Source: Halobaculum magnesiiphilum (GTDB lineage: Archaea; Halobacteriota; Halobacteria; Halobacteriales; Haloferacaceae). Taken from it: a DNA stretch of 64,000 nucleotides. Positions 48,031 through 64,000 of the stretch are shown here, piece after piece. The stretch's first letter is position 1. Each line of letters begins with the position of its first letter. The notes below the pieces were generated by a model, which was not told where the DNA came from, made no database searches, and saw only the letters and a program-made list of their open reading frames with translations. The translations under genes were made by a program, and so were the position numbers. The DNA is taken from assembly GCF_019823105.1 (NCBI RefSeq), contig NZ_CP081958.1:2232001-2296000 (forward strand), given 5' to 3'.

Positions 48031-49215
48031 TTACCGGATGACGTTCGACTCCAGGTCCCGCGGGAAGTACGTCAGCCATTCGGTGCCGTTCTCGGTGATG
48101 GCGATGGTGTCGGAGTGCCGGTAGCCGTACTCGTCGGTGTAGATCCCGGGTTCGATGGTGTAGATCTGTCCGGGCGCCATCACCTCGTCGCCCTCTTCGA
48201 CGTACTCGTAGTCGTCCCAGCCGCGGTCGATGTACGGCGGCTCGTGGCCCCCGAGGCCGATGTTGTGGCCGACGTGGTGCTGGGCGGTGTCCTCGATCCC
48301 CTGTTCGAGGAAGTAGTCGCGGACGACCTCGTCGACGCCGGCGATCGACTGCCCGGGACCGAGCGCGTCGATGGCGATAGTTTGAGCCTCGAGCATCAGC
48401 TCGAAGTAGTGGACCTGCTCGTCGGAGGGCTCCCCGACGAACATTGTGCGTTCCAACTCGGAGTGGTAGCCGTCGACGTTCGCGGACGCGCCCGTGATCA
48501 ACACGTCCCCCTCCGAGATCCGTTCGTTGGGGGTGTGGCCGTGCGGAAGGGCGGTCTCGCTGCCGGAGATGTAGCCGGCGTGGACGGGTCCGGACCCTCG
48601 CGTGCGCACGGCGTATCGATCGCCGAGCGTGTCGAGCATCGCCCGGGAGGCCTCGGTCGTGGCCTTCTGGCTCACCGTCACGGGGTGGGCGCCGACCTCG
48701 GTGTAGTCGGCGAGATAGCGGTGGGCGAGGTTCGCCCACTTCGCGGACTCGCGCACCAGATCCACCTCGGCGTCGGTCTTCTCCCAGCGCATGCGGTCGA
48801 CCCACGACTGGCTCTCGACCTCGACGAACTCCGAGAGAGCGGGGCCCTCGTACCCCATCACGCCGGGCGCGCCGTCGGCGTCGGAGACGACCGATTCGGC
48901 GCCCATCCCCTCCAGCATCGCCGCCGCGGTCTCGATCGGCTTCCCCTGCGGGTAGTCGAAGTAGTGGTGGACCGCGTCGATCCGGGGGTTCGGCTCCACG
49001 CGCTCGACCTCAAGCCGTGGGACGGTGATCTCCATGCCGTCCCGCGTGACCGCGAGGACGACCGGGCGCTCGGTCTGGATGTGATGGAACCCCGAGAGGT
49101 ACTCGATGCTCGTCGCGTCGAGGAACGTCGCCGCGTCGGCAGCGGTGTCCGCGAGCCGCCCGCGGACCTCCGCGAGCCGCGCGTCGAACTCCGATTCGGG
49201 GAGTTTCGTCGCCAT
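48031..49215 (-). CDS. M24-family (Xaa-Pro peptidase-like) protein with altered metal ligands
   Basis: 394 aa. N-terminal creatinase/prolidase domain (about 1-140) and C-terminal pita-bread domain with GHTPNERISEGDVLITGASA, GYHSELERTMFVG, HHVGHNIGLGGHEPP, IEPGIYTDEYGYRHSDT. The metal set is broken: the first Asp of D-x-G is replaced in ITGASANVDG, the SDxTRT Asp is Glu (SELERT, about residue 252), and the final Glu of R-x-E-D is Ser (RHSD). His and one Glu remain. It is therefore like creatinase, which uses the fold without metals. Substrate may not be a Xaa-Pro peptide. Start ATG 49215 chosen by family alignment. Confidence 0.85.
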   Translation of the reverse strand: MATKLPESEFDARLAEVRGRLADTAADAATFLDATSIEYLSGFHHIQTERPVVLAVTRDGMEITVPRLEVERVEPNPRIDAVHHYFDYPQGKPIETAAAMLEGMGAESVVSDADGAPGVMGYEGPALSEFVEVESQSWVDRMRWEKTDAEVDLVRESAKWANLAHRYLADYTEVGAHPVTVSQKATTEASRAMLDTLGDRYAVRTRGSGPVHAGYISGSETALPHGHTPNERISEGDVLITGASANVDGYHSELERTMFVGEPSDEQVHYFELMLEAQTIAIDALGPGQSIAGVDEVVRDYFLEQGIEDTAQHHVGHNIGLGGHEPPYIDRGWDDYEYVEEGDEVMAPGQIYTIEPGIYTDEYGYRHSDTIAITENGTEWLTYFPRDLESNVIR

Positions 49216-49455
49216 GGCAGCCGAATTCGCCGCTCGCGGGATAAGCGTCCGGGAAGCGGCGCGGGGTGCTGCTGTGTTCGCCGGTCGGCGCCGATACAGC
49301 GTATAGTGCGATACGAAATCGGGGTCGTGGTGTTGCGAAGATGGGGGATAATGCACAGGTTCAGCGGAGACTGTTCATCCGCCAGAGGTTTCTCGTGCAG
49401 TTCCATTCACGGGTGAAATCTTGGTTTCTCTCAGAACACAAAAAAGAATTTAGTC

Positions 49456-49463: not shown

Positions 49464-50156
49464 GGCCGTGTTAAGTTAGGAATGAGGCGGTCGTTGGTTC
49501 GGGTGATCTATGACCGAATTCGACCGCCTCAGCGGAGATATCGAGTGGATCGACTTGGAGTTTGTGGAGCGAGAGCGGACACCCGAGCAGATCATTGAAG
49601 TCGGTATTCAACTCCATCTCGCGGGTCTATCACTTTCGAATACCAAACAGTATCTTGAGAGGTTGGGTGTCGAACGGAGTCGTACCGCGATTCATAACTG
49701 GGTACAGAAGGCAGATCTACAGCCGGCTGGCGACGGAGCTCCGAATCAGATCGCAGTCGACGAGACAGTGATTCGGATCAACAACGAACGACACTGGCTG
49801 TACGCTGCCGTCGATCCCGAAACGAACGAATTCCTCCATGTTAGGCTGTTTCAGACGAGAACCACGCAACTCACCGTGCTGTTCCTTCGTGAACTCCGCG
49901 AGAAACAGCAGATCGAGCAAACGACTTTTCTCGTCGATGGAGCGCACTATCTCAAAGCCGCGCTGGAGCGGCTCGGACTCCGATTTCAAATATCTCGCCA
50001 CGGAAATCGGAATGCTGTCGAACGTGTCTTTCGTGAGGTAAAACGCAGAACCTCTTCGTTTTCAAATACGTTCAGCAACGTGGAGCCACCGACGGCAGAA
50101 TCGTGGCTCCAAGCCTTCGCCGTCTGGTGGAATCGATGCTAAAGTTAACACGACGC
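49464..50156. mobile_element. IS6-family insertion sequence, apparently complete (693 bp)
   Basis: Bounded by 8-bp direct repeats GTCATTGC. Left end GGCCGTGTTAAGTTAG and right end (inverted) GCGTCGTGTTAACTTTAG share the CGTGTTAA core, imperfect terminal inverted repeats. Carries one transposase gene filling almost the whole element. 8-bp duplications are the IS6-family rule, so the insertion is probably recent. Subtype not assigned. Confidence 0.8.
49510..50142 (+). CDS. IS6-family transposase
   Basis: 210 aa, usual size for archaeal IS6 elements. DDE catalytic residues: Asp in IAVDETVIRI, Asp in FLVDGAHYL, Glu in NAVERVFREVKRRT. N-terminal helical region (about 20-75) binds DNA ends; C-terminal WLQAFAVWWNRC. 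Frame intact with no internal stop, so the copy may be active. Stop is 14 bp from the element end. Confidence 0.92.
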   Translation: MTEFDRLSGDIEWIDLEFVERERTPEQIIEVGIQLHLAGLSLSNTKQYLERLGVERSRTAIHNWVQKADLQPAGDGAPNQIAVDETVIRINNERHWLYAAVDPETNEFLHVRLFQTRTTQLTVLFLRELREKQQIEQTTFLVDGAHYLKAALERLGLRFQISRHGNRNAVERVFREVKRRTSSFSNTFSNVEPPTAESWLQAFAVWWNRC

Positions 50157-50543: not shown

Positions 50544-51587
50544 CTATATAAATCTGAGACAGACCGGGGAACCTAGCTCCGTCACCTCTCCGATTCGGTC
50601 GAACGTTCCTGCTTCTGAGTCGAACCCGAACGGCACGATATTGTCGCTGTGCTGATGACAGACGAACACGCGTTCGCCGCCAGGGTGAATCGCAAAGTTG
50701 CGAGGCCACTCCCCATCCGTCGATCTGACGGCCGTCCGCGAGACGTTCAGTGGCGATTCCCGCGTCGCGAACAACGCGAAGGAGTTGTGTCCCCTGTTCG
50801 TGGCGAGCACATACTCGCCGTCAGGATGGACGTGAACGTCGGCGGCGATGGTCCCACTCGGATCAACGTCGTCCGGGAGCGTCGAATGGGTCTCCGCGAT
50901 CACAGGGGACCGGGGGTCGGTTAGGTCAAGGATTGCGAGAGTCGCATCAAGTTCGTTCAGAAGGTAGCCGGCGGGTTTGTTCGGGTGGACCGCGAGGTGA
51001 CGCGGTCCGGCACCCGGCTTGCAGTCGATCGTCGCGTCCCTGAGCGGGCGGAGCCGCTCCGCGCGACGGTCCAGCTCGTAGACGACGACCTGGTCGGTGC
51101 CGAGGTCGGGGACGTATAAGAGGGTGTCCGTAACGAACCACGCCGAGTGTGGATGCGGGGCCGCCTGTCGGTCCTCGTTCGGCCCAGACCCCTCGTGTTC
51201 CTGTCTGTCCAACGGGCCATCAAGTGCACCGTCAGTAGTCACGGATAGCAGCGTCACGGAGCCACCCGCGTAGTGAGAGACGACGGCGTACTCCCCACAC
51301 GGGTCAAGCGCGACGTGGCATGGCCTGGCATCCCCAGTCTCCGTCACGTCGAGGCGGTCGAGCGAGCCGTCGTCCTCGTCGACGCGATAGCTGACTGCCG
51401 ATCCGTTCTCCCGCTCGTTCACGGCGACGAAGAACCGCTCCGTAGGGTGGATGTCCAGGAACGATGGGTCTTCCTCCCACGCAGTATCACACAGTGTGAT
51501 CGATACATCGTCAACGCGGTACGTCGAAAGCCCATCGCCTCCGTCCCGTGTGTACGAGCCGACGACGGCGAACGCCGATTCGTTCAT
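50544..51587 (-). CDS. Lactonase family protein (seven-bladed beta-propeller)
   Basis: 347 aa. 6-phosphogluconolactonase/YbhE-type propeller: FAVVGSYTRDGGDGLSTYRV opening blade, DPSFLDIHPTERFFVAVNE, PCHVALDPCGEYAVVSHYAG, and the active-site blade PHPHSAWFVTDTLLYVPDLG, GAGPRHLAVHPNKPAGYLLN. Hydrolyses sugar lactones. Last gene of the carbohydrate cluster, seven bp after the dehydrogenase gene, which would generate its lactone substrate. No signal peptide, so cytoplasmic. Confidence 0.88.
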   Translation of the reverse strand: MNESAFAVVGSYTRDGGDGLSTYRVDDVSITLCDTAWEEDPSFLDIHPTERFFVAVNERENGSAVSYRVDEDDGSLDRLDVTETGDARPCHVALDPCGEYAVVSHYAGGSVTLLSVTTDGALDGPLDRQEHEGSGPNEDRQAAPHPHSAWFVTDTLLYVPDLGTDQVVVYELDRRAERLRPLRDATIDCKPGAGPRHLAVHPNKPAGYLLNELDATLAILDLTDPRSPVIAETHSTLPDDVDPSGTIAADVHVHPDGEYVLATNRGHNSFALFATRESPLNVSRTAVRSTDGEWPRNFAIHPGGERVFVCHQHSDNIVPFGFDSEAGTFDRIGEVTELGSPVCLRFI

Positions 51588-51593
51588 CGGACG

Positions 51594-52478
51594 CTAGAGG
51601 TTCCGCCAGCTCTGTTCGGGCTCCCAATCGAGTAGCTCCTTCGCCTTCGAAAGGTCTACGATCGCCTCGTGGCCGGGGAGTGGTTCCCGCACGTCGGCCT
51701 CAGGGTAGAACGTATCGACGACCTCGGCGGTCATCGCGTCGGCCGTGGTGTCGCCCGCGACTGCCCAGAACACCTCGTGACCGTCGTAGTCCGCCTCGAT
51801 CGCCTTCCGGGCGATCGACGCCGCATCTGCGATCGTGAGATAGGAGAAATACACCTCTCGACCCGTTGCCGGATGTACGTCGTGGAGTGCGTCGAGTGAC
51901 CGGTCGGGTTCGACGAAGTACTCGTGCATCTCCGCATCGTTGGTCACCCACGGGTACCGTAGCGAAGAGATGGTGAGGTCGGTCGACGGCCGTCGGCCGA
52001 AGCCGTCCGCGGTGACCTCCATCGCGTGTTTGGCGATTCCGTAGGGATCGCCGGGCGTGCGCGGGTGGGCCTCGTCGAGTGGAATGTACCGAACGTCCGC
52101 CGGACGCTCTTGATGCTCGCTTCCCATGGCGTTGATGCTGGAAGCCAGACAGACCGACTCTAGCCCGAGCGCGTCGGCCGCCTCAAGGACGTGCGCGGCC
52201 GACATGACGTTGCTCTCGTACACCCTGAAATCGGGGTTGCCATAGGGGTTTGGGATAGTTCCCATGTGGATGACGGCGTCCACGTCCGTCTTCGCGAACG
52301 CGCCGTACGTCTCGCCAGCGTCGAGTAGGTCCGTCGTTACGTACTTGTCGGAGACCTCCTCGTGCCGTTTCCCGCGCGAGACGTTCACCGTCTCGTAGCC
52401 GTGCTCCCCGAGGTGTTCGAGGATTGCCGAGCCGATCTTCCCGTTGCCTCCTGTGACCGCTATCGTGTCGAGTGTCAT
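51594..52478 (-). CDS. NAD-dependent sugar dehydrogenase/epimerase (SDR, uronate/azf-type)
   Basis: 294 aa extended SDR. VTGGNGKIGSAILEHLG binds NAD(P), ASSINAMGSEHQ supplies the catalytic Ser and DPYGIAKHAME the Tyr-x-x-x-Lys pair. Resembles uronate dehydrogenase and the haloarchaeal azf-type enzymes that oxidise aldoses or aldose phosphates to lactones. With a lactonase on one side and mannonate dehydratase on the other, oxidation of D-mannose (or another aldose) to a 1,5- or 1,4-lactone is the best reading; true epimerase activity is less likely. Confidence 0.82.
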   Translation of the reverse strand: MTLDTIAVTGGNGKIGSAILEHLGEHGYETVNVSRGKRHEEVSDKYVTTDLLDAGETYGAFAKTDVDAVIHMGTIPNPYGNPDFRVYESNVMSAAHVLEAADALGLESVCLASSINAMGSEHQERPADVRYIPLDEAHPRTPGDPYGIAKHAMEVTADGFGRRPSTDLTISSLRYPWVTNDAEMHEYFVEPDRSLDALHDVHPATGREVYFSYLTIADAASIARKAIEADYDGHEVFWAVAGDTTADAMTAEVVDTFYPEADVREPLPGHEAIVDLSKAKELLDWEPEQSWRNL

Positions 52479-52519
52479 AGGTTGTGTCAATCGTATTGAT
52501 GGTGGTTGTTGACGCCGCG

Positions 52520-53482
52520 CTACTCCAGCAGCCCCTTGATGTACCCGATCGCGAACAGCCGACCCATGTCGGTGTACCCCGCCATCGCGTCGTCGCGGTC
52601 CTGTTCGCCGACCATCCGCGGGACGTGATCCGGGCGGATCGGCCCTTCGAAGCCGACCTCCCGGTACGCCTCGATGGCGGCTTTCATGTCGGTCGGCCCC
52701 TCGTCGTGCCACGTCTCGACGAAGTTCCGTTCGTCGCCCTCGACGTCGCGGAAGTGGACGAAGTGGATCCGGTCGCCGAACTCGCGGATCGCCTCGATCG
52801 TGTCGGCGCCCATCGCGGAGAAGTTCCCCTGACAGAAAGTGACACCGTGGTGCGGGCTGTCGTGGAGATCGAGGATCCGCCGGTAGTCCTCGACGGATTG
52901 GACGATTCGCGGGATGCCGCGGACGGGTGACGTTGGTGGGTCGTCGGGGTGTAACGCGAGGTTCACGCCGTACTCCTCGGCGACGGGGACCACCTCGTCA
53001 AGGAAGTACTGCAGGTTCTCCCAGAGGTCGTCTTCCGTAATTCCGGCGGCTTCGTGGGCAGGGGCACGCTCCATCCACTCGTGGTCGTAGCCGATGCGCT
53101 GGGAGTTGCCGCGCCCCGGCACCGAGTCGGAGGTGCGGATGACGCCGAGCGGGTTCTCGGTCCACACCCAGCAGTACGTGTCAATTCCGAGTCGGCCCAT
53201 GTTCTCGATAAGGGTTTTGACGGTCTCGATCTCCTCGTCGCGGCCCTCGTTCCCGAGGACGGTCTCCTCCATCGGCGGGCGATCTTCGACGACATCCAGC
53301 GAGAGGCCGTGGTCCTCGAATCGAGTCACCGTGCGCTGGAGCGTGTCGTACTCCCACCAGTCGTCGACGCCCCAGAAGCGCACGACGGCAGTGTCGATGC
53401 CGAGTTGCTTGGCGATGGTCCACCGCCGATCCGGCTTCGGCGGGAGCATTACGGTCGGGTCCATGTCGTATCGGTCAGTCAT
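52520..53482 (-). CDS. uxuA: Mannonate dehydratase (UxuA family)
   Basis: 320 aa TIM-barrel. NLALHPDDPPTSPVRGIPRI, HGVTFCQGNFSAMGADTIEA, RIHFVHFRDVEGDERNFVET, and the C-terminal RPDHVPRMVGEQ carry the metal and substrate ligands of the UxuA family (Mn/Fe bound by His, Cys, His, Asp). Dehydrates D-mannonate to 2-keto-3-deoxygluconate. Shorter than bacterial UxuA (about 390 aa) but all C-terminal motifs are present. No glucuronate isomerase or mannonate oxidoreductase is nearby, so a hexuronate origin of mannonate is not indicated. Confidence 0.88.
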   Translation of the reverse strand: MTDRYDMDPTVMLPPKPDRRWTIAKQLGIDTAVVRFWGVDDWWEYDTLQRTVTRFEDHGLSLDVVEDRPPMEETVLGNEGRDEEIETVKTLIENMGRLGIDTYCWVWTENPLGVIRTSDSVPGRGNSQRIGYDHEWMERAPAHEAAGITEDDLWENLQYFLDEVVPVAEEYGVNLALHPDDPPTSPVRGIPRIVQSVEDYRRILDLHDSPHHGVTFCQGNFSAMGADTIEAIREFGDRIHFVHFRDVEGDERNFVETWHDEGPTDMKAAIEAYREVGFEGPIRPDHVPRMVGEQDRDDAMAGYTDMGRLFAIGYIKGLLE

Positions 53483-53504
53483 TTGTGTTTGTGGTCGTGG
53501 AATG

Positions 53505-54743
53505 TCAGTCGTCGGGCTGTGGGTCGTGCGCGGAGCGCCAGCACTCGTAGAACGCGCTGACAGGGTGGTAGTCGGGCTCAACGCCCGGTGGGTCGGGGGC
53601 GATGAGGTCGCCGCCGTCATTGGCCAGGAGGCGCTTCTCGTACCAGAGGCCAGCAGGCCCTCGGTAGCTGTCGGTACACGCGAGGAACCGGTGGTTCAAT
53701 TCCTGAAGGTGGTCGACCGTGTGGAGGTCACCGTATTCGGCGGCCCGCTCGGCGAGCGCTGCGGACGCACCGATGGCCTCCGCCAGTGCCCAACCGTACT
53801 GGTCGGACACGATTGGCCTCCCGTACTTCTCGTGGGTATACACGAAGCCGGTCCCCGTCCAGCCGTTGTCGACGGCAGTCTCGAACAACTCTAGCGCACG
53901 GGCGTACCAGCCGCCATCGGGCACGTACTCGTCGTTCTCCCCTGCGTCGGTCCCCTCGTCGTATCGGTCGAGCAGCGCGAGGAACTTCGCCCACTCGACG
54001 TGGTGGCCGGGCTGGTACCCCGGCGGCCGGAACTGGTGACGGGGTTCGTCCTCGTTGTACCCGAAGTCGTGGTCCCAGTCGTCGGTGTAGTGTTCCCACA
54101 GCAGTCCGTCGGTCTCCCTAGCAAGAGCGATCGTAATTGTATACGCGATGTGCCGGGCACGGTCGAGGTACCTCGTTTCTCCCGTGGCTTCGTAGGCGGC
54201 GAGGTAGGCCTCGCAGGCGTGCATGTTCGCGTTCTGGCCGCGGTATTCCTCCTGCTCGGTCCAGTCAGGGGCGCAGTCGCTCCGGACCATCCCGGCACCG
54301 TCGCGGAAGCGATCCTCGAGCAGCTCGTGGGTCGCCACGAGATCGTCCTCGGCGCCGTCAATATCGGCTGCTGTCGCACGTGCGAACGCGAGGAGGACGA
54401 AGGCATGCCCGTACGCCGATCGAGTCCGGTTGAGTGGCTCGCCATCTTTGCCGACAACGAGGTGGTAGCCATCCCCGTCGTCGGTGCGGTGCGCCTGTCG
54501 GAGAAACGCGAGCCCGTGTTCGGCAGCGTCGAGACACCAATCCGGGCCGTCGGCGACCGCACCGATCGCGAAGTTCGCGATCGACCGACACGTTGCCACG
54601 AGATGTCGCCGATGGTCGGTGTACGGATCTCCGGAGACCGGATGCAATAGCCGGAAGCCGCGTTCTGCGAGTGCGTCCGGATACTGCACACGGAGCGTCG
54701 CGAGTAGCCGGCCACGATTCGCGTTCGAAGGAGAGTTAATCAT
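53505..54743 (-). CDS. AGE-family sugar isomerase/2-epimerase
   Basis: 412 aa alpha6/alpha6 barrel of the N-acylglucosamine 2-epimerase superfamily. RSAYGHAFVLLAFARA, NANMHACEAYLAAYEATGET (family NxHM block), PGYQPGHHVEWAKFLALLDR (catalytic His) and SDQYGWALAEAIGASAAL are typical. Members interconvert mannose and fructose, glucose and fructose, sulfoquinovose and its ketose, or epimerise C2. Clustered with a beta-fructosidase upstream and mannonate dehydratase downstream, so mannose isomerase (fructose to mannose) is the likely role. Cytoplasmic. Confidence 0.85.
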   Translation of the reverse strand: MINSPSNANRGRLLATLRVQYPDALAERGFRLLHPVSGDPYTDHRRHLVATCRSIANFAIGAVADGPDWCLDAAEHGLAFLRQAHRTDDGDGYHLVVGKDGEPLNRTRSAYGHAFVLLAFARATAADIDGAEDDLVATHELLEDRFRDGAGMVRSDCAPDWTEQEEYRGQNANMHACEAYLAAYEATGETRYLDRARHIAYTITIALARETDGLLWEHYTDDWDHDFGYNEDEPRHQFRPPGYQPGHHVEWAKFLALLDRYDEGTDAGENDEYVPDGGWYARALELFETAVDNGWTGTGFVYTHEKYGRPIVSDQYGWALAEAIGASAALAERAAEYGDLHTVDHLQELNHRFLACTDSYRGPAGLWYEKRLLANDGGDLIAPDPPGVEPDYHPVSAFYECWRSAHDPQPDD

Positions 54744-54752
54744 CTCAAATTA

Positions 54753-55409
54753 TTATAATTGGCTGGGACTCGCGCCTGCGTTCTGTGACATTTCGATTTC
54801 CAGATTCCGTGATTCCTTGATCAGTAGGACATGCAATGAAGCCGTAACTCCGGCGAACAGGAGAACGAACGCGACCGTCAGCAAAACGGTCAACGCGAGT
54901 AGCGCCGTTGTGAGGAGCGCGGTGGCGAGCGCGGCTGTTGGGTGTGTGCTCACCCAGCGGACCCCCCGCCGTATCGCCGTCACGGGCATTGTTCCGGAGG
55001 CCATCTCGTCGAACGTAGGGATCAGCACCAGACCGACGTAGAGGGCGATGTAGCCGCTGACCAGAGCAACTACTTCACCGAACAGTGCCCCCTGTTCGAG
55101 TGCTTGCACCCCATACATGGTCGCGATGGCGGTGAAAGCGACGGGGACACCGCTGAACACAGCGCTTGCGACGCCGTTCTGCCGGAGGATCGCAATGATT
55201 CGTGACCAATCGATCGTGTTTCGGTCAGACCGGAGATCCTGCACAGCGACGTACACCGCCAACGTCGAAGGTCCGACCGTGATTATCGGGAGCGAGCAAA
55301 CTACCCAGAGGATGCTCAGGACGGCCAGCCGAAGTCCGTTCCCGTACACGAATCGGGGGAGCTGCGAGAGCGCCCTCGTGAATGCCAGTCGATTAGATTC
55401 GTTCGTCAT
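54753..55409 (-). CDS. DUF624 (YesL-like) membrane protein
   Basis: 218 aa, about five transmembrane segments. N-terminal FVYGNGLRLAVLSILWVVCS and SLPIITVGPSTLAVYVAVQD are the DUF624 signature. In bacteria, members accompany CUT1 sugar transporters (for example YesL). Lies 4 bp downstream of the permease gene stop, co-transcribed. Probably an accessory of the sugar ABC transporter; role unknown. Confidence 0.82.
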   Translation of the reverse strand: MTNESNRLAFTRALSQLPRFVYGNGLRLAVLSILWVVCSLPIITVGPSTLAVYVAVQDLRSDRNTIDWSRIIAILRQNGVASAVFSGVPVAFTAIATMYGVQALEQGALFGEVVALVSGYIALYVGLVLIPTFDEMASGTMPVTAIRRGVRWVSTHPTAALATALLTTALLALTVLLTVAFVLLFAGVTASLHVLLIKESRNLEIEMSQNAGASPSQL

Positions 55410-55412
55410 GGA

Positions 55413-56279
55413 TTATCCCGTTCCAGCCTGCATCTGGACGCTGGAAATGAGCTTGTCCTGGAACAGCAGGAAGACGATGAACAGCGGCAGCGAAGCCAGC
55501 GCCAGCGAGGTCATGATTACGTTCGGGGCCAGTGCGTTCACCGACCGAAGCGTAACGACACCGATCGGGAGCGTGTACAACTGGTCGTTATTGAGCACGA
55601 TTAGCGGCCACAGGAACTGGTTCCAGCTCCAGATGAAGACGAACAGACCGAGTGCCGTCAGGATCGGCGTCGACAGCGGCATAATGATCTGGGCGTAGAT
55701 TCTGAACGGGGAGAACCCGTCGAGGCGGGCTGCCTCCTCCAGTTCCTTCGGGATGTCCCTGAAGAACTGAACGAGTAGGAACACACCCAGTGGACCCGCC
55801 GCAAACGGCAGGATGATAGCCCAGTAAGAGTTGACCATCCCCAGGTTGTTGACCACGGTGAACAGGGGAATGATGTTGACGTACCCTGGAATCATGAAGC
55901 TCGCCAGAATAACCCCCAGTACGACGCTACGCCCAGGCCACTTGAGCCGCGTGAGCGAGAACGCGATCATCGAGTCGACCACGAGCACTAGGAACGTCGT
56001 GATGCTGGCGATCAGGAACGTGTTGAACGCCCACTGGTAGATGATCGGTTCCTGGACGAGGAAGCGTTCCCAATAGGCGAACGTCACGTCCGACGGGATC
56101 AAGAAGAACTCGCCACTGGCGACGAGCCCTGCGGGCGTCACCGACAGCTGGAACATCCGCCAGAAGGGGATGAAGAAGGCGATCGCTATCCCGTACATCA
56201 CGACGTACAGGGCAATCCGTGACAGCCGCTCTCGTCCGATGCGATCGACGAACCGATTTGATGCGCTTGAATTACTCAT
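55413..56279 (-). CDS. Sugar ABC permease, MalG type (CUT1)
   Basis: 288 aa from ATG 56279, overlapping the MalF-type stop by 8 bp; a longer in-frame start upstream is a shadow. Six transmembrane segments; EAA loop IPKELEEAARLDGFSPFRIY. C-terminal QDKLISSVQMQAGTG is similar to MalG/LacG endings (GxTxGAVKG). Part of an oligosaccharide importer. Confidence 0.92.
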   Translation of the reverse strand: MSNSSASNRFVDRIGRERLSRIALYVVMYGIAIAFFIPFWRMFQLSVTPAGLVASGEFFLIPSDVTFAYWERFLVQEPIIYQWAFNTFLIASITTFLVLVVDSMIAFSLTRLKWPGRSVVLGVILASFMIPGYVNIIPLFTVVNNLGMVNSYWAIILPFAAGPLGVFLLVQFFRDIPKELEEAARLDGFSPFRIYAQIIMPLSTPILTALGLFVFIWSWNQFLWPLIVLNNDQLYTLPIGVVTLRSVNALAPNVIMTSLALASLPLFIVFLLFQDKLISSVQMQAGTG

Positions 56280-57201
56280 TGTTCGTCCCCACGATGTAGT
56301 AGTTGAGTGCCGAGACCACGACCAGAATCGCCAGCAGCGTGTACCCAACAGCCGAACCGAACCCTAGCTGTCGCGTCTCGAACCCGAGTTGGTAGAGGTA
56401 GTAGACGAGCGTCTGCGTCTCCCCGCTCGGTCCGCCCCTCGTCATCACGAAGGGCTGGCCGAACACCTGGAACTGGAAGATCGTCGAGGCGATGACGACG
56501 AACAACAGTCCGTTTTTCATGTGCGGGAGTGTAATATCGCGGAACATCCGCCACGGACCTGCACCGTCGAGTCGTGCTGCCTCGTACAGGCGCTCCGGGA
56601 CGTTCTGTCGGGACGCCAGCAGGATGGCGAAGTAGAATCCTGTCTGCCACCACACGGTCGTGATGACGAGCGAGGGCATCGCCCAGAGATTCGAATTCAG
56701 CGGACTCCCCTCGATCAAGGAACCCAAGAGAAAGGTCCCGATACCTCCCTCCGCGAACATCTGTACCCAGATAAGTCCGACAACCGACACTGTCAGCACG
56801 TACGGGCTGAAGTAGAGGAACTGGAGGAGACGGTCTCCGACCAGTTCCTTGTTCAATCCGAGTGCGAGCACGAGGCTCAGTCCGACGATCAACGGGACGG
56901 TCATCGCAACGAACTCGAGGGTGTTCCAGAGGGCGTTCCAGAAGACTGGGTCGGAGAGCAGACGGGCGTAGTTTCCCACGCCGACGAACGTGGACTCCGA
57001 CGGCCTGAGGAAGTTCCACTCGAAGAGGCTCATGTACAGCCCTTTCGCCAATGGGTACAACATAAACACCGCAAACAGGGTGAGGTACGGCGACGCGAAC
57101 AGGAGCCCGATGATGAGCTCTCGCGTCGACCGCTCGGAGATGAACCGATTGAAGAACCCCGACGAAGTGTTGGCCGTGGCCGTGTCTACGTTTTCAGCCA
57201 T
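56272..57201 (-). CDS. Sugar ABC permease, MalF type (CUT1)
   Basis: 309 aa, six transmembrane segments after a ~35-residue cytoplasmic N-terminus. EAA loop YEAARLDGAGPWRMFRDITL. Follows the binding-protein gene by 4 bp and overlaps the MalG gene. Forms the membrane channel with it. Confidence 0.92.
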   Translation of the reverse strand: MAENVDTATANTSSGFFNRFISERSTRELIIGLLFASPYLTLFAVFMLYPLAKGLYMSLFEWNFLRPSESTFVGVGNYARLLSDPVFWNALWNTLEFVAMTVPLIVGLSLVLALGLNKELVGDRLLQFLYFSPYVLTVSVVGLIWVQMFAEGGIGTFLLGSLIEGSPLNSNLWAMPSLVITTVWWQTGFYFAILLASRQNVPERLYEAARLDGAGPWRMFRDITLPHMKNGLLFVVIASTIFQFQVFGQPFVMTRGGPSGETQTLVYYLYQLGFETRQLGFGSAVGYTLLAILVVVSALNYYIVGTNNE

Positions 57202-57205
57202 GGAA

Positions 57206-58573
57206 TCACGCGTCGTCTAACGCCGATTGGAGCGAGTTCGCAGCCTGCGTGAGTGCCTCGTCGACACTCATGTTTTGGAGGTACATCTCGTACAGCGGCT
57301 TCCAGTACCGGTTGCTGTTGAGATGAATCGGCGTCATCGGCTGGTACTCGATCTGGTTGTTCGTGACCATCTCGTGCATCCGCGAGATACTCTTGAACTC
57401 CGTCCAGAGCTTCGTGTTCTTCACTTCGCTCGATGTAGCAACTGACTTCGCGGCGGGGAGGTGCCCTCCGGCAGACGCCCAGAGCGTGTGATTCTGCGTG
57501 ATGTATTCGGCGAACTCGACGGCGGCCTGCTTCTCGGTTTCATTGTGGCTGTCGTTGACCGGGAAGTACAGCGAGTTGCTCTCGGCCCATGCGACGTCCT
57601 CGCCGGAACCGGGGAACATGAAGGGTTTGTGGAACTCGAACGAGAGGTCCTCAGGGACTTCCCCGTTCTCGTTCTCGAAGTTGTTGATCCCCCACGTTCC
57701 CTCGACGACCATACCGAGGTCACCGTTGACGAAGTCGTTGATTCGACCCAATCCGCTCCTGAACTCCGTTTTGTCCCAGCCGTGCTCGCCGACGACGGAC
57801 GACATCAATTGAGCTGCTTCCTTCCCGGGACCTTGGTCGAAGACGACGTCGTAGTTACCCGGTTCTCCCTCGATGATGTTACCGCCTGCCTGGGTGAGTG
57901 CGATGATGTACGCACGGAGCGCACTCTGGCCTGCCTGACCATTGAGCATCGAGAACGCTCGCGAGTCCGTTTCTTCCACGATCGTGTTACACGCGTCGGA
58001 AAACGACTGCCAGTCCGCGAAGTCGGGGTCGACTCCCGCTTCCTCCATGACGGCGTCGTTCGTGTAGAGTCCCTTCCCGTGGATGTCGAGCGGGAGCGCG
58101 TAGGTCTGCCCGTCGACTTGGAGGTTGTCCCACGCCGATTGGAAGTACTTGTTCTTCGCGCCGTTGGAGAGGTAGTCGTCGATGGGGTGACAGATCTGCT
58201 GGAGGTGACGACCGTAGGAGCCGTAGTAGCTCGCAACGTGAGGCGCGTTTCCGGAGCTGACAGACGTGAATAGCTTGGTCAGGAACTCCTCGAACGGGAC
58301 GCTCTGTTTGTTGACGGTGATCCCGTTGTCTAGAGCGTTGAAGTCCTCGACAAGCGAGGTCATCTCTTCGTTCTCCTGCGCCCCGAAGTACATCCAGTAA
58401 TCGAGCTGAATCGAATCGGAACTACCACCGCTGCTGCCGTCACCGCCACCGCCGGTGAGGCCAGAACAGCCAGCGAGCCCACTGGCCAGAAGCGCGCCGC
58501 CAGTACCGAGCGCGGCACGCCGAGTGATCTGTTTGCTGTTCGAATCGTCAGTCGCGTGATTCTGGTTCGTCAT
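57206..58573 (-). CDS. Sugar ABC substrate-binding lipoprotein (CUT1)
   Basis: 455 aa. Tat signal QITRRAALGTGGALLASG and lipobox LAGC, then Gly/Ser-rich linker. Mature domain is MalE-like (SBP_bac_1): QLDYWMYFGAQENEEMTSLV at first strand, GKGLYTNDAVMEEAGVDPDF hinge block, DLGMVVEGTWGINNFENENG. Binds an oligosaccharide outside the cell; given the GH32 enzyme, fructo-oligosaccharide or sucrose is likely. Confidence 0.9.
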   Translation of the reverse strand: MTNQNHATDDSNSKQITRRAALGTGGALLASGLAGCSGLTGGGGDGSSGGSSDSIQLDYWMYFGAQENEEMTSLVEDFNALDNGITVNKQSVPFEEFLTKLFTSVSSGNAPHVASYYGSYGRHLQQICHPIDDYLSNGAKNKYFQSAWDNLQVDGQTYALPLDIHGKGLYTNDAVMEEAGVDPDFADWQSFSDACNTIVEETDSRAFSMLNGQAGQSALRAYIIALTQAGGNIIEGEPGNYDVVFDQGPGKEAAQLMSSVVGEHGWDKTEFRSGLGRINDFVNGDLGMVVEGTWGINNFENENGEVPEDLSFEFHKPFMFPGSGEDVAWAESNSLYFPVNDSHNETEKQAAVEFAEYITQNHTLWASAGGHLPAAKSVATSSEVKNTKLWTEFKSISRMHEMVTNNQIEYQPMTPIHLNSNRYWKPLYEMYLQNMSVDEALTQAANSLQSALDDA

Positions 58574-58651
58574 TGGTGTGTTCGAGGTTGTATCTGGTTC
58601 GTTAGTTGTTGAGCGGTACTGCGGGATTGCTCGGTGTGGTGTACTGTTCGC

Positions 58652-59788
58652 TCATGATTCGGCTGTAGCCGACGAGCTGCTGGGGTTTCGGACGCGCTCA
58701 CCGACGAGAAGGTTCTCGCCCGTCTGTCGGTCGAACAGGTGGACGTGGTCCTCGGGAAGAGACAGCCCGACCGTCGTCCCAGGCTCGAAGCGAGTGCTTC
58801 CGTCGACTCGGACGGTCCACTCGGTCTCGTGCTTCGAGAGGTAGAGGTAGTTATCACTCCCCTCGTGTTCGAGGACGTCGAGTTCGGCTGTGATCGATTC
58901 TGACTCGTCGACCCGAACGTGTTCTGGACGAATTCCGAGAACGAACTCGTCAGTCGTCGCGCGGGCACGACATCTCGAGACGAGGTCTTTCGACGGCTGA
59001 TAGTCGAAGTCGTCGGCCACGAACCGCCCGTCTTCCAGTTCGACATCGAAGAAGTTCATCGACGGTGATCCGATGAAGTCCGCGACGAACTGGTTCGCTG
59101 GTTCAGCATACACGGTTTCGGGTGTGCCGACCTGCTGTATCGTTCCGTCGTCGAGGATCACAATTCGGTCCGACATGGTCATCGCCTCCGTCTGGTCGTG
59201 GGTAACATAGACCGACGTCGTCTCAAGGTCGTCCTGAATCCGCTGGAGCTCCGTTCGCATGTGGAGTCGCAGTTTCGCGTCTAGGTTCGACAGCGGTTCG
59301 TCGAACAGGAACACCTCTGGCTTCCGGACGATGGCGCGACCGGTGGCGACGCGCTGTTGTTGCCCTCCGGAGAGGCTGTTTGGTTTCTTGTCGAGGAGAT
59401 CTTCGATGCCCATCATCTCAGCGGTCTCCTCGACACGGGACTGAATCTTCTCGTCCGAGAGATCAGTGGTCAGTCGAAGTCCGTACGACATGTTCTTCCT
59501 AACGCTCATGTGGGGATAGAGCGCGTACTCCTGGAACACCATCGCCACACCCCGGTTCTGTGGTGCGACGTTGGTCACGACCTGGTCACCGATGCGCAGT
59601 GTCCCGTCAGTGATGTCCTCTAGCCCGGCTATCATCCTGAGTAGCGTCGACTTGCCGGATCCGGAGGGTCCGACGATAGTGAGGAACTCTCCGTCCCGAA
59701 CGTCGAGGCTAACGCCATCGACTGCCACTATCGTCCCCGAATCACCGCCGTACTCCTTTCGTATGTTATCGATTGTTATGCTTCCCAT
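58652..59788 (-). CDS. Sugar ABC ATPase (MalK/UgpC type)
   Basis: 378 aa from MGSITIDNIRKEYGG (ATG 59788; an in-frame start three codons earlier is less family-like). Walker A GPSGSGKSTLLRMIAG, signature LSGGQQQRVATGRAI, Walker B VFLFDEPLSNLDA, switch VTHDQTEAMTM, then C-terminal TOBE regulatory domain (ELDVLEHEGSDNYLY, LSLPEDHVHLFDRQTGENLL). Follows the GH32 gene; the binding-protein start lies 78 bp further downstream. Confidence 0.92.
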   Translation of the reverse strand: MGSITIDNIRKEYGGDSGTIVAVDGVSLDVRDGEFLTIVGPSGSGKSTLLRMIAGLEDITDGTLRIGDQVVTNVAPQNRGVAMVFQEYALYPHMSVRKNMSYGLRLTTDLSDEKIQSRVEETAEMMGIEDLLDKKPNSLSGGQQQRVATGRAIVRKPEVFLFDEPLSNLDAKLRLHMRTELQRIQDDLETTSVYVTHDQTEAMTMSDRIVILDDGTIQQVGTPETVYAEPANQFVADFIGSPSMNFFDVELEDGRFVADDFDYQPSKDLVSRCRARATTDEFVLGIRPEHVRVDESESITAELDVLEHEGSDNYLYLSKHETEWTVRVDGSTRFEPGTTVGLSLPEDHVHLFDRQTGENLLVGERVRNPSSSSATAES

Positions 59789-59907
59789 CAAGAACACAAC
59801 TAGACGCCACCGACTTCAATCTTTCTCACAACTGTGGTGAATATTGTTTAGTCCTGGTGAGAAGTTATCGATCCCAGAAAGGGTCCATCGAGAATGACTC
59901 GACGATG

Positions 59908-62067
59908 CTACTCGTATGCGGAGCCCATTTCCCAGACGTCGAGCGAGTTGACCATCACATCGTTATAGGTCGAATAGAGGTCGACGCCGAGACTGTCTGA
60001 CCGAGTGGGATAGATACGGCTCGTGAGGCACTGAGCGTCGTTCGCGAACAGCTCGATAACTGACCGGTCGAGGAACACGCGTAAGGTGAAGGTTCCGTCT
60101 TCCGCCAGCCGGATCGGCATCGACTGAGCAGAGTTGTCCACGTTCGAACTCAGACTGGACTGGCTCCTGTCGACCCGGACTTCCCGTTCCGGAATGTCGC
60201 AGGTAACGACCGTTCGCTCCTCACCTTCCGGCGACTGTCTAAGTATCAACCCGAACTCCTCTACGTCCGCCGCGTCGAGCGTGAGTGAGAGTTCCAACGC
60301 ATCACCCGAGACGCCATCGAGGTAGCCTGACTCTCCGGGAACGACCTGTACGTCCTCGAAGTGATGGTGCGTTTCGCGGAGCTCAGCCACACTGTCTGCT
60401 ACATTGATTTGCTGACGTTGATCCTTGGTCATGGAAATTTCTCGTGGAAGTGACATGTGTCCGGACCACCCAGCCTCCCACTGGCTCTCTGCGTTCCTCT
60501 CCTCTCGTACCCAGCCGAACATGATCGTCTTGCCGTCGTCCGTCTTCATCGACTGAGGTGCGTAGAATGCACCGTGGTCGAGCAGGGAGCGGCGGTCCGG
60601 TTCGAAGTGTAACTCGTCCTGGTCGTACGCTCCAGTGATAGCGACAACGTTAGTGTAGTCAGAGATGTGGAGGAGGGCACCGTCGTCGAAGCGGAGGAGT
60701 TCGGGACACTCCCATATGGGCCCGGTCTCTCGCCAGTCACCAACGAGAAGGGGGTGGCAGTACTCCCAGTCACGGAGGTTCTCCGACCGGAACAGCAGAG
60801 CGGTTCCGCCCTCTCGTTCGATTCCGGAGCCGATTATCTGGTACCAAACACCGTCGACTCTGTGGAGCGCGTGATCGCGGAACTCAATGTCCCAGTGAAC
60901 GGTAGAGAGGAGGTCGAGCGAGTCCGGTGGTGTTTCGATCACTGGATTCGCCGGGTCTTTGCGCCAAGTCGTCAGGTCGTCGTCGGCGGCGGTTGCGAGA
61001 CATGGGAGTTGCGTCCGCCCGCTCCCGCCCGTGTACATGATACGAGGCGTCCCGTCGTCATCGACGAGCGCGCCGGACCAACATCCGTGTTCGTCGGGAC
61101 CGCCCGGCGTCGGCGTCAACGCGAGCGGCTTGTCTTCCCAGTGTACCAAGTCGTCACTGACTGCGTGACCCCAGTGTATCGTCCCGTGGAACGGGCCCGA
61201 TGGGTTGTACTGGTAGAACAAGTGGTAGCTTCCGTTCCAGTGGACGAGTCCGTTCGGGTCGTTGAGCCAGTTCGCCGGTGGTGAGAAGTGATACTTCGGG
61301 CGGTGAAGCCGGTCCGGAACCGCGCGGCGCATTGCCTCTAATTCTTCACGACCCTTCGGTCGACCCATCGTCGGTGGAGTCCGCTCGTTCCCGTTCAGAT
61401 AGGAGCAGATGTTCCGCAGAAGGCGGGTTCGAGTCTCCAGGTGCCTGTCGCTTTCAGTCGTCGACGAAAACCCGTGTCCGACACCAATCACACGACCATT
61501 GCCGAATTCCCAGTGGAGGAGGGATTTTTTCGAGGGATATCTGGATGACTCGACCGTCGCAGCCAATACATCTCCCTCCTTCGGTGTCTTATCCTCGTAG
61601 TGAACTGAGAGTGTTTCCTCCGACGTGACTGTCCGAACTTCGAAGTCATCGATCCCCTCGAACACAGGATGCGTCTCGTAGAGCTTTCTCACGAGGAAAC
61701 CACTCGAATCCGGCGTTCGACGTTCGACCCAGTCGGGTTCGTGCGTCTCGACACCGAGCGACGTTGCGGCAGTAACCGCACCATGAGTCAACAATAATCC
61801 GCCACCTGATTCGACGAACGAACGAATCTTCTTGCAAGCCGTGTTCGACGCCTCAACGGGAGCCTCGCTGTGCCACCACAGAACGTCGTAATTGTCGATA
61901 TTCGAGTCAGTTAGGTCCGATAGGGCGACCACGTCCGCTTCGGATGCCAGAGCAGACCACTCGATCGACTCTGGCACTTGCTTGCGCCCTTCTGGGACGA
62001 TGCACGCAACCCTGTACGTAGGGTGAGTCGCTGACATCGAGGTCTCCTCCTCCTGCTCAATATTCAT
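59908..62067 (-). CDS. GH32 beta-fructosidase with N-terminal ThuA/GATase-like domain
   Basis: 719 aa. Residues about 10-215 form a ThuA-like, class I GATase-type flavodoxin fold (VLWWHSEAPVEASN, GGGLLLTHGAVTAATSLGVE, GNGRVIGVGHGFSS) without the catalytic Cys. GH32 follows: nucleophile Asp270 in NWLNDPNGLVHW, RDP-like motif altered to FRDHALHR (about 397) and acid/base Glu453 in WECPEL. C-terminal GH32 beta-sandwich ends near 719. No signal peptide, so intracellular hydrolysis of imported sucrose or fructans (levan/inulin type). First gene of the minus-strand cluster; ATG 62067 fits a TATA element 27 bp upstream. Confidence 0.88.
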   Translation of the reverse strand: MNIEQEEETSMSATHPTYRVACIVPEGRKQVPESIEWSALASEADVVALSDLTDSNIDNYDVLWWHSEAPVEASNTACKKIRSFVESGGGLLLTHGAVTAATSLGVETHEPDWVERRTPDSSGFLVRKLYETHPVFEGIDDFEVRTVTSEETLSVHYEDKTPKEGDVLAATVESSRYPSKKSLLHWEFGNGRVIGVGHGFSSTTESDRHLETRTRLLRNICSYLNGNERTPPTMGRPKGREELEAMRRAVPDRLHRPKYHFSPPANWLNDPNGLVHWNGSYHLFYQYNPSGPFHGTIHWGHAVSDDLVHWEDKPLALTPTPGGPDEHGCWSGALVDDDGTPRIMYTGGSGRTQLPCLATAADDDLTTWRKDPANPVIETPPDSLDLLSTVHWDIEFRDHALHRVDGVWYQIIGSGIEREGGTALLFRSENLRDWEYCHPLLVGDWRETGPIWECPELLRFDDGALLHISDYTNVVAITGAYDQDELHFEPDRRSLLDHGAFYAPQSMKTDDGKTIMFGWVREERNAESQWEAGWSGHMSLPREISMTKDQRQQINVADSVAELRETHHHFEDVQVVPGESGYLDGVSGDALELSLTLDAADVEEFGLILRQSPEGEERTVVTCDIPEREVRVDRSQSSLSSNVDNSAQSMPIRLAEDGTFTLRVFLDRSVIELFANDAQCLTSRIYPTRSDSLGVDLYSTYNDVMVNSLDVWEMGSAYE

Positions 62068-62091
62068 CACTACAGTGGTTACATTAGTAGG

Positions 62092-62185: not shown

Positions 62186-64000
62186 ATGTCTGAACCAGAC
62201 ACCGCAAAGTTAGCCGTTCTGAAAGAAACCCTTCGAGAGCACGTCGGGTTGTCGAAGTACGAGGCAGATGTCTATCTGGCGCTCGTCCGCGGTGGGGCCC
62301 AGACAATGACCGAGATCTCAAAGGCGAGTGATGTTCCAAAGCAGCGGGTGTACGATACTGTCGATGACCTACGTGACGAGGGATTTGTCGAGATAATCGA
62401 CGACTATCCACAGAAGGCGTACGCAGTGGACCCGATTGAGGCGTTCTCTGACATCCAAACGCAGCTCAAACAGGCCGAGGAGTACCTTGATGAGATGCAT
62501 GAGACGGTCGAGAACGTCGAGAGTGGAGTTGCCCTGTTCAAGGACGATCGAACCATCGAGAAGTACGTTAGAGAACTCATCGCGAGCGCGAAGCAGGATA
62601 TACTAGTCCTCTGCCCTCGTTCCAAACTGGGACGCATCGTCGACCACTTGGACGAGTGTGAGGACCAGCAGGTACGGCTCATCGTGTCTGATCTCGCTCC
62701 AGAGTTGGCAGATGTGGAGTTCGACCTCGACGAGAAGGTCCCCGAGGCGGTCGACACGATTCGAGGAACAACGACAACGGAGCATTTCGCTCTCTCGGTC
62801 GACCGTGAACGAGGTCTTTACTGGTCGAGCGCGTCGACGGGTCAGTCGACGGACGACGATCGGGGCTTCTATATCACAAATCCGCAACTCGTACTGGTAC
62901 TCGACCGATTCATCTCCGAATCGGTGTGGCCTCTCTCCCGACCACTCCGCTCTCGAATTCCCACGCTTCCACAGCAGTATCTTCGCATCCGCGACTGCCT
63001 CTCTGACCTATCCGATCTCACGAACGCTCGACCGCTCGACAGTATTACAGTCGAATTCGAAGGGTACGACACGAGGACCGGCGAGGAGGTACAGGAAACA
63101 GGAACTCTTAGCAGGTTCTATTACGCGGAGTACGACCGTCGTGCGTCGATCACCCTCAACGTCGGAGATCGCGAAGACGAGGCAGAGTCCCCCCTTGTAA
63201 CGGTCGGCGGAATCGGAAGTCGGACCGAGGATTTCGCCGCGGACACGATCACAGTTCGAGAGACGGTTGAGCGAACGAGTGACTCATTAAATCAAGAGAC
63301 TCGTGAGCATCTCCGCACCTGTCGAGAGGAACTCCCCGGTCAGTTCGGAACCAAATCAGTCGTGACAGGGTTCGACGCATTCGTCGACCGAATGCGGGAC
63401 GTCATCGACGAGTGGACGAACGGGTATCACCAGCAAACTGAGTTCGAGAAATTCAAACAGTCTCTCTTTGAGTTCGACGCGAGTGAGCGGACACCTCGTA
63501 TCGAATGGGCCCAGACGAGCACGGAACCAGGGGGGCATGTCGCTCACTCGGGTCAGACGTTCGCGGGTCTCGGCTACGATGTGACACTCATTGGACCACT
63601 TGGAACGCCAATAGCTTCGGAGTTTAGACGCGCGTTCCGTAATCAGACACTCGTCAGTACCGGTCAAACGACGTACACGGACTACTTGCGGTTCAAAGAT
63701 CAAAAACTGCTCTTCACCGAGCCGAACACGGACCGAATCTCGTGGGACAATCTTCTCGACGAGGTCGGCCTTACGGAGCTCGCGGAGCACATTGATGGGT
63801 CCGCGCTTCTCACGTTAGGAACTGCGTTCTCGACGACGAAACTGCCCTCGATCTTTCGGGGCATTCGTGAAGAGTTGTGGCCGACGCTCTCCTCACCGCC
63901 CAAGCACGTTCAGGTCACTACCGACGCGATCCACCGGTTCGCACCGTCACTGGTTCGTGAGGGATACTCGGAACTCGACCAGTTGGACGACACGGTACCG
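62186..64000 (+). CDS. TrmB-type regulator fused to PfkB-like sugar-kinase domain (partial)
   Basis: 605 codons visible, open to the right edge. Residues 1-75 are a TrmB winged HTH (LREHVGLSKYEADVYLALV, ISKASDVPKQRVYDTVDDLR), then a coiled linker and PLD-like effector domain (about 85-260; DILVLCPRSKLGRIVDHL). A second beta-rich region follows to about 340. From residue 393 a ribokinase/PfkB-like domain starts: VTGFDAFVDRMRDVIDEW, then EPGGHVAHSGQTFAGLGYDV and TLIGPLGTP, the sugar-binding N-terminal half. I traced the codons across the junction and the frame is continuous. C-terminal ATP site (DTxGAGD) is beyond the window. Divergent from the fructan cluster, so it likely controls it. Confidence 0.82.
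   Translation, partial: MSEPDTAKLAVLKETLREHVGLSKYEADVYLALVRGGAQTMTEISKASDVPKQRVYDTVDDLRDEGFVEIIDDYPQKAYAVDPIEAFSDIQTQLKQAEEYLDEMHETVENVESGVALFKDDRTIEKYVRELIASAKQDILVLCPRSKLGRIVDHLDECEDQQVRLIVSDLAPELADVEFDLDEKVPEAVDTIRGTTTTEHFALSVDRERGLYWSSASTGQSTDDDRGFYITNPQLVLVLDRFISESVWPLSRPLRSRIPTLPQQYLRIRDCLSDLSDLTNARPLDSITVEFEGYDTRTGEEVQETGTLSRFYYAEYDRRASITLNVGDREDEAESPLVTVGGIGSRTEDFAADTITVRETVERTSDSLNQETREHLRTCREELPGQFGTKSVVTGFDAFVDRMRDVIDEWTNGYHQQTEFEKFKQSLFEFDASERTPRIEWAQTSTEPGGHVAHSGQTFAGLGYDVTLIGPLGTPIASEFRRAFRNQTLVSTGQTTYTDYLRFKDQKLLFTEPNTDRISWDNLLDEVGLTELAEHIDGSALLTLGTAFSTTKLPSIFRGIREELWPTLSSPPKHVQVTTDAIHRFAPSLVREGYSELDQLDDTVP

Follow-up and report, generated by a model that had tools for sequence, protein, structure and literature searches.

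The stretch analysed here, referred to as the window, is a 64,000-nucleotide segment (C1:2232001-2296000) of the 3.73 Mb genome of the haloarchaeon Halobaculum magnesiiphilum. It contains ten co-directional minus-strand genes, running from 62067 down to 50544, that encode a GH32 beta-fructosidase, a CUT1 importer composed of an ATPase, a solute-binding protein (SBP) and two permeases, a DUF624 protein, an AGE-superfamily isomerase, a UxuA-type dehydratase, a short-chain dehydrogenase/reductase (SDR) and a beta-propeller lactonase. Pfam matches were obtained for all ten genes (Table 1), in agreement with the families, strand and order given in the original prediction, an earlier reading of this DNA from its letters. 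The intergenic gaps from GH32 onward are 119, 78, 4, -8, 3, 9, 22, 41 and 6 bp, which bears out the statement that most are under 45 bp with one overlap; the AGE start lies 9 bp past the DUF624 stop. The actual starts are at 62067 (ATG) for GH32, 59788 for the ATPase, 56279 for permease 2, 53482 for UxuA and 52478 (ATG) for the SDR, and the longer mechanical open reading frame (ORF) calls for the SDR and UxuA are frame extensions upstream of the true starts. The operon is a conserved haloarchaeal fructan-uptake locus joined to a mobile AGE-UxuA-SDR-lactonase module, and it sits on a horizontally acquired island. The best reading of the predicted enzymes, which we consider reasonably probable, is a route from fructose through mannose and mannonate to 2-keto-3-deoxygluconate (KDG).

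Table 1 Features of the operon and its borders in window coordinates
Feature	Coordinates	Strand	Evidence
IS6-family transposase, downstream island edge	49510..50142	+	NF033587 191.9 bits (cut-off 125)
Seven-bladed beta-propeller lactonase, predicted mannono-lactonase	50544..51587	-	PF10282 284 bits; PDB relatives include gluconolactonase PpgL 6igb
Extended SDR, predicted mannose 1-dehydrogenase	51594..52478	-	PF01370 75.5 bits; orthologues 64-82% identical
UxuA-type mannonate dehydratase, 320 aa	52520..53482	-	PF03786 265.7 bits; NF003027 207.2 bits; PDB 1tz9/3ban/4eac
AGE-superfamily isomerase, predicted D-mannose/fructose isomerase	53505..54743	-	PF07221 248 bits; PDB 3gt5, 5x32, 2afa/2rgk YihS
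DUF624 membrane protein, transporter-associated	54753..55409	-	PF04854 23.8 bits, slightly below the 24.2 cut-off; kept in fructan loci
CUT1 permease 2	55413..56279	-	PF00528; 59-78% identity across fructan loci
CUT1 permease 1	56272..57201	-	PF00528; 8-bp overlap with permease 2
Tat lipoprotein SBP	57206..58573	-	PF13416/PF01547; leader read in sequence
UgpC/MsmK-type ATPase	58652..59788	-	PF00005 and TOBE; NF008653 458.6 bits (cut-off 432)
Predicted intracellular GH32 beta-fructosidase, ThuA-like N-terminal domain	59908..62067	-	PF00251 249 bits; PF08244 107 bits
Candidate operator, inverted repeat CCACTGTAGTG	62068..62078		Abuts the GH32 start; TATA-like CATAAG upstream of the repeat
Divergent regulator, TrmB and degenerate ketohexokinase domain	62186..64000, on to 64396 beyond the window	+	PF01978, PF11495, PF25270

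The two parts of the operon were distinguished by comparison with a sample of 391 haloarchaeal genomes. The fructan module, in which a TrmB-fusion regulator diverges from GH32-ATPase-SBP-permease 1-permease 2-DUF624, recurs at L096, L154, L156, L158, L160, L161, L162 and L170, mostly with 45-79% identity (37% for the SBP of L160/L161), and the AGE-UxuA-SDR-lactonase continuation is absent after all eight. AGE-UxuA-SDR, with or without the lactonase, was also found in L035, L036, L037, L038, L041 and L098, with a lactonase orthologue inside the module of L036 (H. noricense), L037, L038 and L098. The UxuA-SDR pair is present in L097 and L099, and decayed AGE-UxuA-SDR copies in L072 and L103 suggest gain and loss of the module. 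Both halves recur with conserved gene order in genomes that are not related, which is more than a chance arrangement. GC content is 0.585 over GH32-DUF624 and then 0.642 over AGE-lactonase, a step that, together with the 9-bp DUF624-AGE junction, fits the recent joining of two differently derived pieces. A single ancestral fructan-to-KDG locus was considered and rejected, since other genomes carry the halves separately and the GC content of the halves differs.

Co-occurrence of the six families in other haloarchaea, as envisaged in the original prediction, did not hold for the full set: GH32 was not found beside this module elsewhere in the sample, an outcome that goes part of the way towards the refutation named in the original prediction and is explained by the joining of the two modules here. 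The closest co-location was observed in Actinarchaeum halophilum (L093/L115), where UxuA (73%), a distant AGE (41%) and the SDR (64%) share one neighbourhood with a secreted GH32 bearing a ricin-type lectin domain, a 1-phosphofructokinase (1-PFK), an intact ketohexokinase and a DeoR-like regulator. The same species was the only close relative returned by an SDR contig scan restricted by exact peptide patterns. It encodes both possible fructose routes, and it supports linkage of the module enzymes with fructan use but not exclusivity.

Elsewhere, the AGE-UxuA-SDR-lactonase module sits where fructose is made and ketohexokinase is missing. The msc cluster of Haloarcula hispanica imports mannitol and sorbitol and oxidises both to fructose, as demonstrated by deletions and enzymology, and the msc-derived fructose is phosphorylated by ketohexokinase (PMC11519228). 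Natrinema versiforme pNVE414 (L035) carries the order Zn-dehydrogenase-SBP-permease 1-permease 2-UgpC-AGE-UxuA-SDR-dgoD, with importer and dehydrogenase genes 50-87% homologous to Har. hispanica HAH_5138-5148. N. salinisoli, Natrinema sp. SYSU A 869, Halocatena salina and G226 likewise hold the module within an msc cluster or after one, and ketohexokinase occupies the msc clusters of L171, L172 and L173 in its place. An msc permease is present in 47 of the sampled genomes; among these, all or part of the module was found in five of the 11 that lack an intact ketohexokinase versus none of the 36 that have one (one-sided Fisher p = 3e-4, phylogeny ignored). The five span four genera and three families; the 36 were called ketohexokinase-positive by strong score, with the catalytic motif read directly in 14.

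The genome of the window also encodes a complete Haloarcula-type msc cluster without ketohexokinase (C1:776252-787506, L177; 46-87% identity). No intact ketohexokinase was found in this genome, only the fused degenerate copy described below, and 1-PFK and the phosphotransferase system (PTS) component EIIC were likewise not found in it. The lower semi-phosphorylative Entner-Doudoroff pathway is encoded, both KDG kinase (NF041332, 533 bits; cut-off 440) and 2-keto-3-deoxy-6-phosphogluconate (KDPG) aldolase (TIGR01182, 201 bits; cut-off 156) being present.

The acquired nature of the island, which the original prediction left out together with the regulator fusion from 62186 onward, was evident from its composition and borders. 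GC is approximately 70% in the chromosomal flanks and drops to 52-65% between ~49 and 67 kb of window coordinates. Terminal repeats of the IS6 copy at the downstream edge were not found by simple search; the other edge carries a transposase (window coordinate 64848-66827) whose C-terminus weakly matches the ISH3 type. The flanking genes encode the aminopeptidase PepQ (48031-49356) and the zinc permease ZnuB (from ~67029; L004:4030-5082). Of the seven sister genomes compared within the genus, four (L202, L203, L204 and L206) have these two genes adjacent, within ~100 bp, which indicates a 17-18 kb insertion in the window's genome. The PepQ-ZnuB distance is ~2.4 kb in two of the other sister genomes and 13.4 kb in one (G063, L207, different content), and the interval is an apparent insertion hotspot, of which the island is one occupant. 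AGE, UxuA and ketohexokinase were not found in ten other genomes of the genus.

From the protein families we infer the following substrates and reactions. Oligofructans or sucrose would be taken in by the CUT1 ATP-binding cassette (ABC) importer and cut in the cytoplasm by GH32. Fructose would then be isomerised to mannose by AGE, mannose would be oxidised to mannono-lactone by the SDR, the lactone would be opened by the propeller lactonase, and the resulting mannonate would be dehydrated to KDG by UxuA, leaving host KDG kinase and KDPG aldolase to complete the breakdown. With sucrose as the substrate, the glucose and fructose halves would converge on KDG. This order of intermediates, already put forward in the original prediction, is supported by the presence of the module in fructose-making loci, by UxuA relatives beside a glucuronate isomerase and by the host KDG kinase and KDPG aldolase. 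The GH32 protein carries the motifs WLNDPNG, FRD and WECPE as well as the PF00251 and PF08244 domains; no export signal was seen on it by eye, in contrast to the SBP with its twin-arginine lipoprotein leader, so hydrolysis is probably intracellular. The N-terminus of GH32 (59908-62067) weakly matches a ThuA/glutamine-amidotransferase-like domain.

The closest PDB relatives of the AGE protein are 3gt5 (189 bits) and 5x32 (187 bits), the latter of which we take to be a D-mannose isomerase, with YihS types at ~113-117 bits. The AGE motifs NANMH, PGYQPGHH and DYHP were read directly, and H175, H247 and H393, presumably the catalytic histidines as judged from the YihS family, are invariant in the AGE alignment and matched with 3gt5/5x32. 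Distant AGE copies adjoin ketohexokinase in L171 and L172, which fits fructose/mannose interconversion. Solitary AGE genes of the close clade (58-70% identity) were also observed in numerous relatives among the haloarchaea, chiefly in genus g2 (L039-L071), with no consistent partner in ~25 neighbourhoods.

UxuA exceeds the NF003027 cut-off of 191 and falls below that of TIGR00695 (160.3 bits; cut-off 199.55). Its motifs HPDDPP, FCQGN, HFRDV and RPDHVP align with the PDB relatives and are invariant in the UxuA alignment, the His, Cys, His and Asp-His being taken as the metal/active-site residues of the family. Mannonate is the likely substrate of the window UxuA, because copies with 74% identity adjoin a UxaC-like glucuronate isomerase, recognised by eye, in L109 and L113. 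Additional UxuA copies with 73-75% identity, beside a TRAP-like transporter, an IclR-type regulator and an SDR, were observed in L104-L108, L110 and L111, which are likely haloarchaeal hexuronate loci (families assigned by eye).

The SDR displays the motifs TGGNGKIG and YGIAK, and an SRGK stretch past its second strand is a hint that the cofactor may be NADP and not the NAD assumed in the original prediction. Its close clade (64-82% identity) mostly accompanies UxuA, also in Halomontanus rarus, with Halostagnicola larsenii at 59%; exceptions exist. SDR relatives in Halocatena marina (L189) and Haloarcula marina (L185) were observed amid sulfatases, GH88, GH172 and PL8. The lactonase is an ordinary PF10282 member.

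Several observations weigh against the route from fructose to KDG. The join of GH32 to the module was observed once. The best NCBIfam match of the AGE protein, D-mannose isomerase NF051846, reaches 179.8 bits against a cut-off of 600, and AGE is therefore not filed in that equivalog. No characterised close relative of the SDR was found, its AlphaFold model is poor (pLDDT 37.5) so that no substrate can be inferred from structure, and some relatives lie in sulfatase/PL8/GH88 loci, making other aldose substrates possible for this clade. In the Halocatena salina copy (G360), UxuA is reduced to a remnant beside AGE, and UxuA paralogues lie at other sites; without this genome the msc comparison stands at four of 11 versus none of 36, with p still small by hand calculation. 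1-PFK is present in four of the 11 module genomes and missing in seven; it was found in eight of ten ketohexokinase-bearing msc genomes. Finally, the genome encodes a fructokinase-like PfkB elsewhere (C1:1165924; 187.6 bits, cut-off 450) and Pgi, so another fructose route may exist.

That second route belongs to the most durable alternative, according to which the module is a mere passenger that handles mannose from outside, or some other aldose, while the fructose released by GH32 is converted to fructose-6-phosphate by PfkB and passed on by Pgi. Similar PfkB genes were observed near GH32 in L162-L165, and the SDR, lactonase and UxuA would suffice for mannose, for which the route was proposed earlier (PMC10963439, PMC3102087). 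However, mannose alone needs no AGE, yet AGE precedes UxuA and the SDR and begins directly behind DUF624 in the fructan operon, and further copies of the module turn up in msc clusters that generate fructose and in settings that lack ketohexokinase. On this balance the passenger explanation is considered unlikely.

Less probable still is that AGE converts mannose to fructose, performs a 2-epimerisation or acts on a disaccharide, and that the SDR, lactonase and UxuA use some other aldose, for instance one set free from sulfated or uronic polysaccharides. The AGE superfamily includes cellobiose 2-epimerase and GlcNAc epimerase, the distant AGE genes beside ketohexokinase suggest mannose-to-fructose conversion in L171 and L172, and the SDR relatives that accompany sulfatases, GH88 and PL8 point to other sugars. 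Nevertheless, the cellobiose 2-epimerase match amounts to 37.8 bits versus 113-189 for mannose-isomerase/YihS types, close relatives of the SDR mostly go with UxuA, and the product chemistry of UxuA fits mannonate.

The divergent regulator (62186-64396) couples TrmB (PF01978, PF11495) to a C-terminal ketohexokinase domain (PF25270, 321.5 bits). In its structural model, most of residues 370-736 are confident and match PfkB kinases, and the N-terminal part matches TrmB. The motif TTS[AS]GDHF is present in all 34 aligned standalone ketohexokinases; the window regulator reads RNVDDHF at this position and thus does not carry the enzyme motif. TrmB-ketohexokinase fusions were found in the window, L096 and L154-L166, nearly always beside GH32. 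The anion-hole Gly is lost in 15 of 15 aligned fused copies and the motif Asp in eight of 15, the window copy being among those that keep it; D401 and G449-G450 are retained, as are D397 and H454 in most. The L169 fusion has an intact motif and lies inside an ABC/dehydrogenase operon. Taken together, the regulator is probably a fructose sensor rather than an enzyme. A domain that is still catalytic and handles fructose as fructose-1-phosphate (F1P) would be in keeping with the PF25270 score, the retained Asp and the intact motif of L169, but is very improbable given the loss of the Gly in all 15 aligned fused copies, the loss of the Asp in eight of them and the lack of a user for F1P in a genome where no 1-PFK was found. 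The repeat CCACTGTAGTG, a predicted operator, aligns with TCAC-N7-GTGA, found at the equivalent position in four other fructan loci.

A broader proposal, held tentatively and at somewhat less than even confidence, is that AGE-UxuA-SDR(-lactonase) constitutes a mobile, phosphorylation-free fructose cassette that has repeatedly replaced ketohexokinase in polyol and fructan loci, with a TrmB protein bearing a captured ketohexokinase as the fructose sensor controlling the fructan loci. If the fructose route is correct, it would represent a third haloarchaeal fructose entry next to the PTS and ketohexokinase routes. No phosphate would be spent before KDG, the sucrose halves would meet at one Entner-Doudoroff intermediate, and fructose use would be explained in haloarchaea that have polyol or fructan importers and no intact ketohexokinase or 1-PFK.

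Although the families are known singly, their combination and its tie to fructose-generating loci appear to be new. The analogy to the sulfoquinovose Entner-Doudoroff pathway drawn in the original prediction extends to its logic alone, as both place an SDR dehydrogenase, a lactonase and a dehydratase before a KDG-like intermediate, and YihS belongs to the AGE superfamily. The partner genes differ: the window operon has UxuA, and no GH31 sulfoquinovosidase, IlvD/Edd-type dehydratase or sulfo-sugar (sulfo-KDG) aldolase is among its genes, for which reason membership in that pathway was rejected; none was noticed among the other island ORFs read by eye. With the E. coli-type hexuronate pathway (UxaC-UxuB-UxuA) the operon shares the formation of KDG from mannonate by UxuA, whereas its mannonate is predicted to come from mannose oxidation rather than fructuronate reduction, and it contains neither UxaC nor UxuB.

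The statement that no archaeal pathway of this form had been described requires narrowing. A mannose-mannonate-KDG route was proposed for Natronoglomus mannanivorans (PMC10963439), and a mannonate dehydratase for mannose was suggested in Halorubrum lacusprofundi (PMC3102087); these share the conversion of mannose to mannonate, the dehydratase and the semi-phosphorylative Entner-Doudoroff pathway with the present proposal. They differ in starting from mannan or mannose with another candidate dehydrogenase, with no AGE, no lactonase in the module and no fructose entry. Fructose entry by AGE and UxuA was not found described in the open-access literature.

The Har. hispanica msc and ketohexokinase system (PMC11519228) resembles the window operon in CUT1 import and an intracellular fructose intermediate; clusters homologous to it house AGE-UxuA-SDR elsewhere, and the window's genome owns an msc cluster. 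In Har. hispanica, fructose proceeds through F1P to fructose-1,6-bisphosphate by ketohexokinase and 1-PFK, both of which are missing or degenerate in the window's genome. No open-access literature joining TrmB with ketohexokinase was found. By sequence and fold, the regulator's C-terminal domain falls within the haloarchaeal ketohexokinase family (PF25270), from which it differs in being fused to TrmB and in its degenerate catalytic GD motif. The regulator looks like an enzyme domain that was fused to a DNA-binding regulator and lost its catalytic motif where its former substrate is released.

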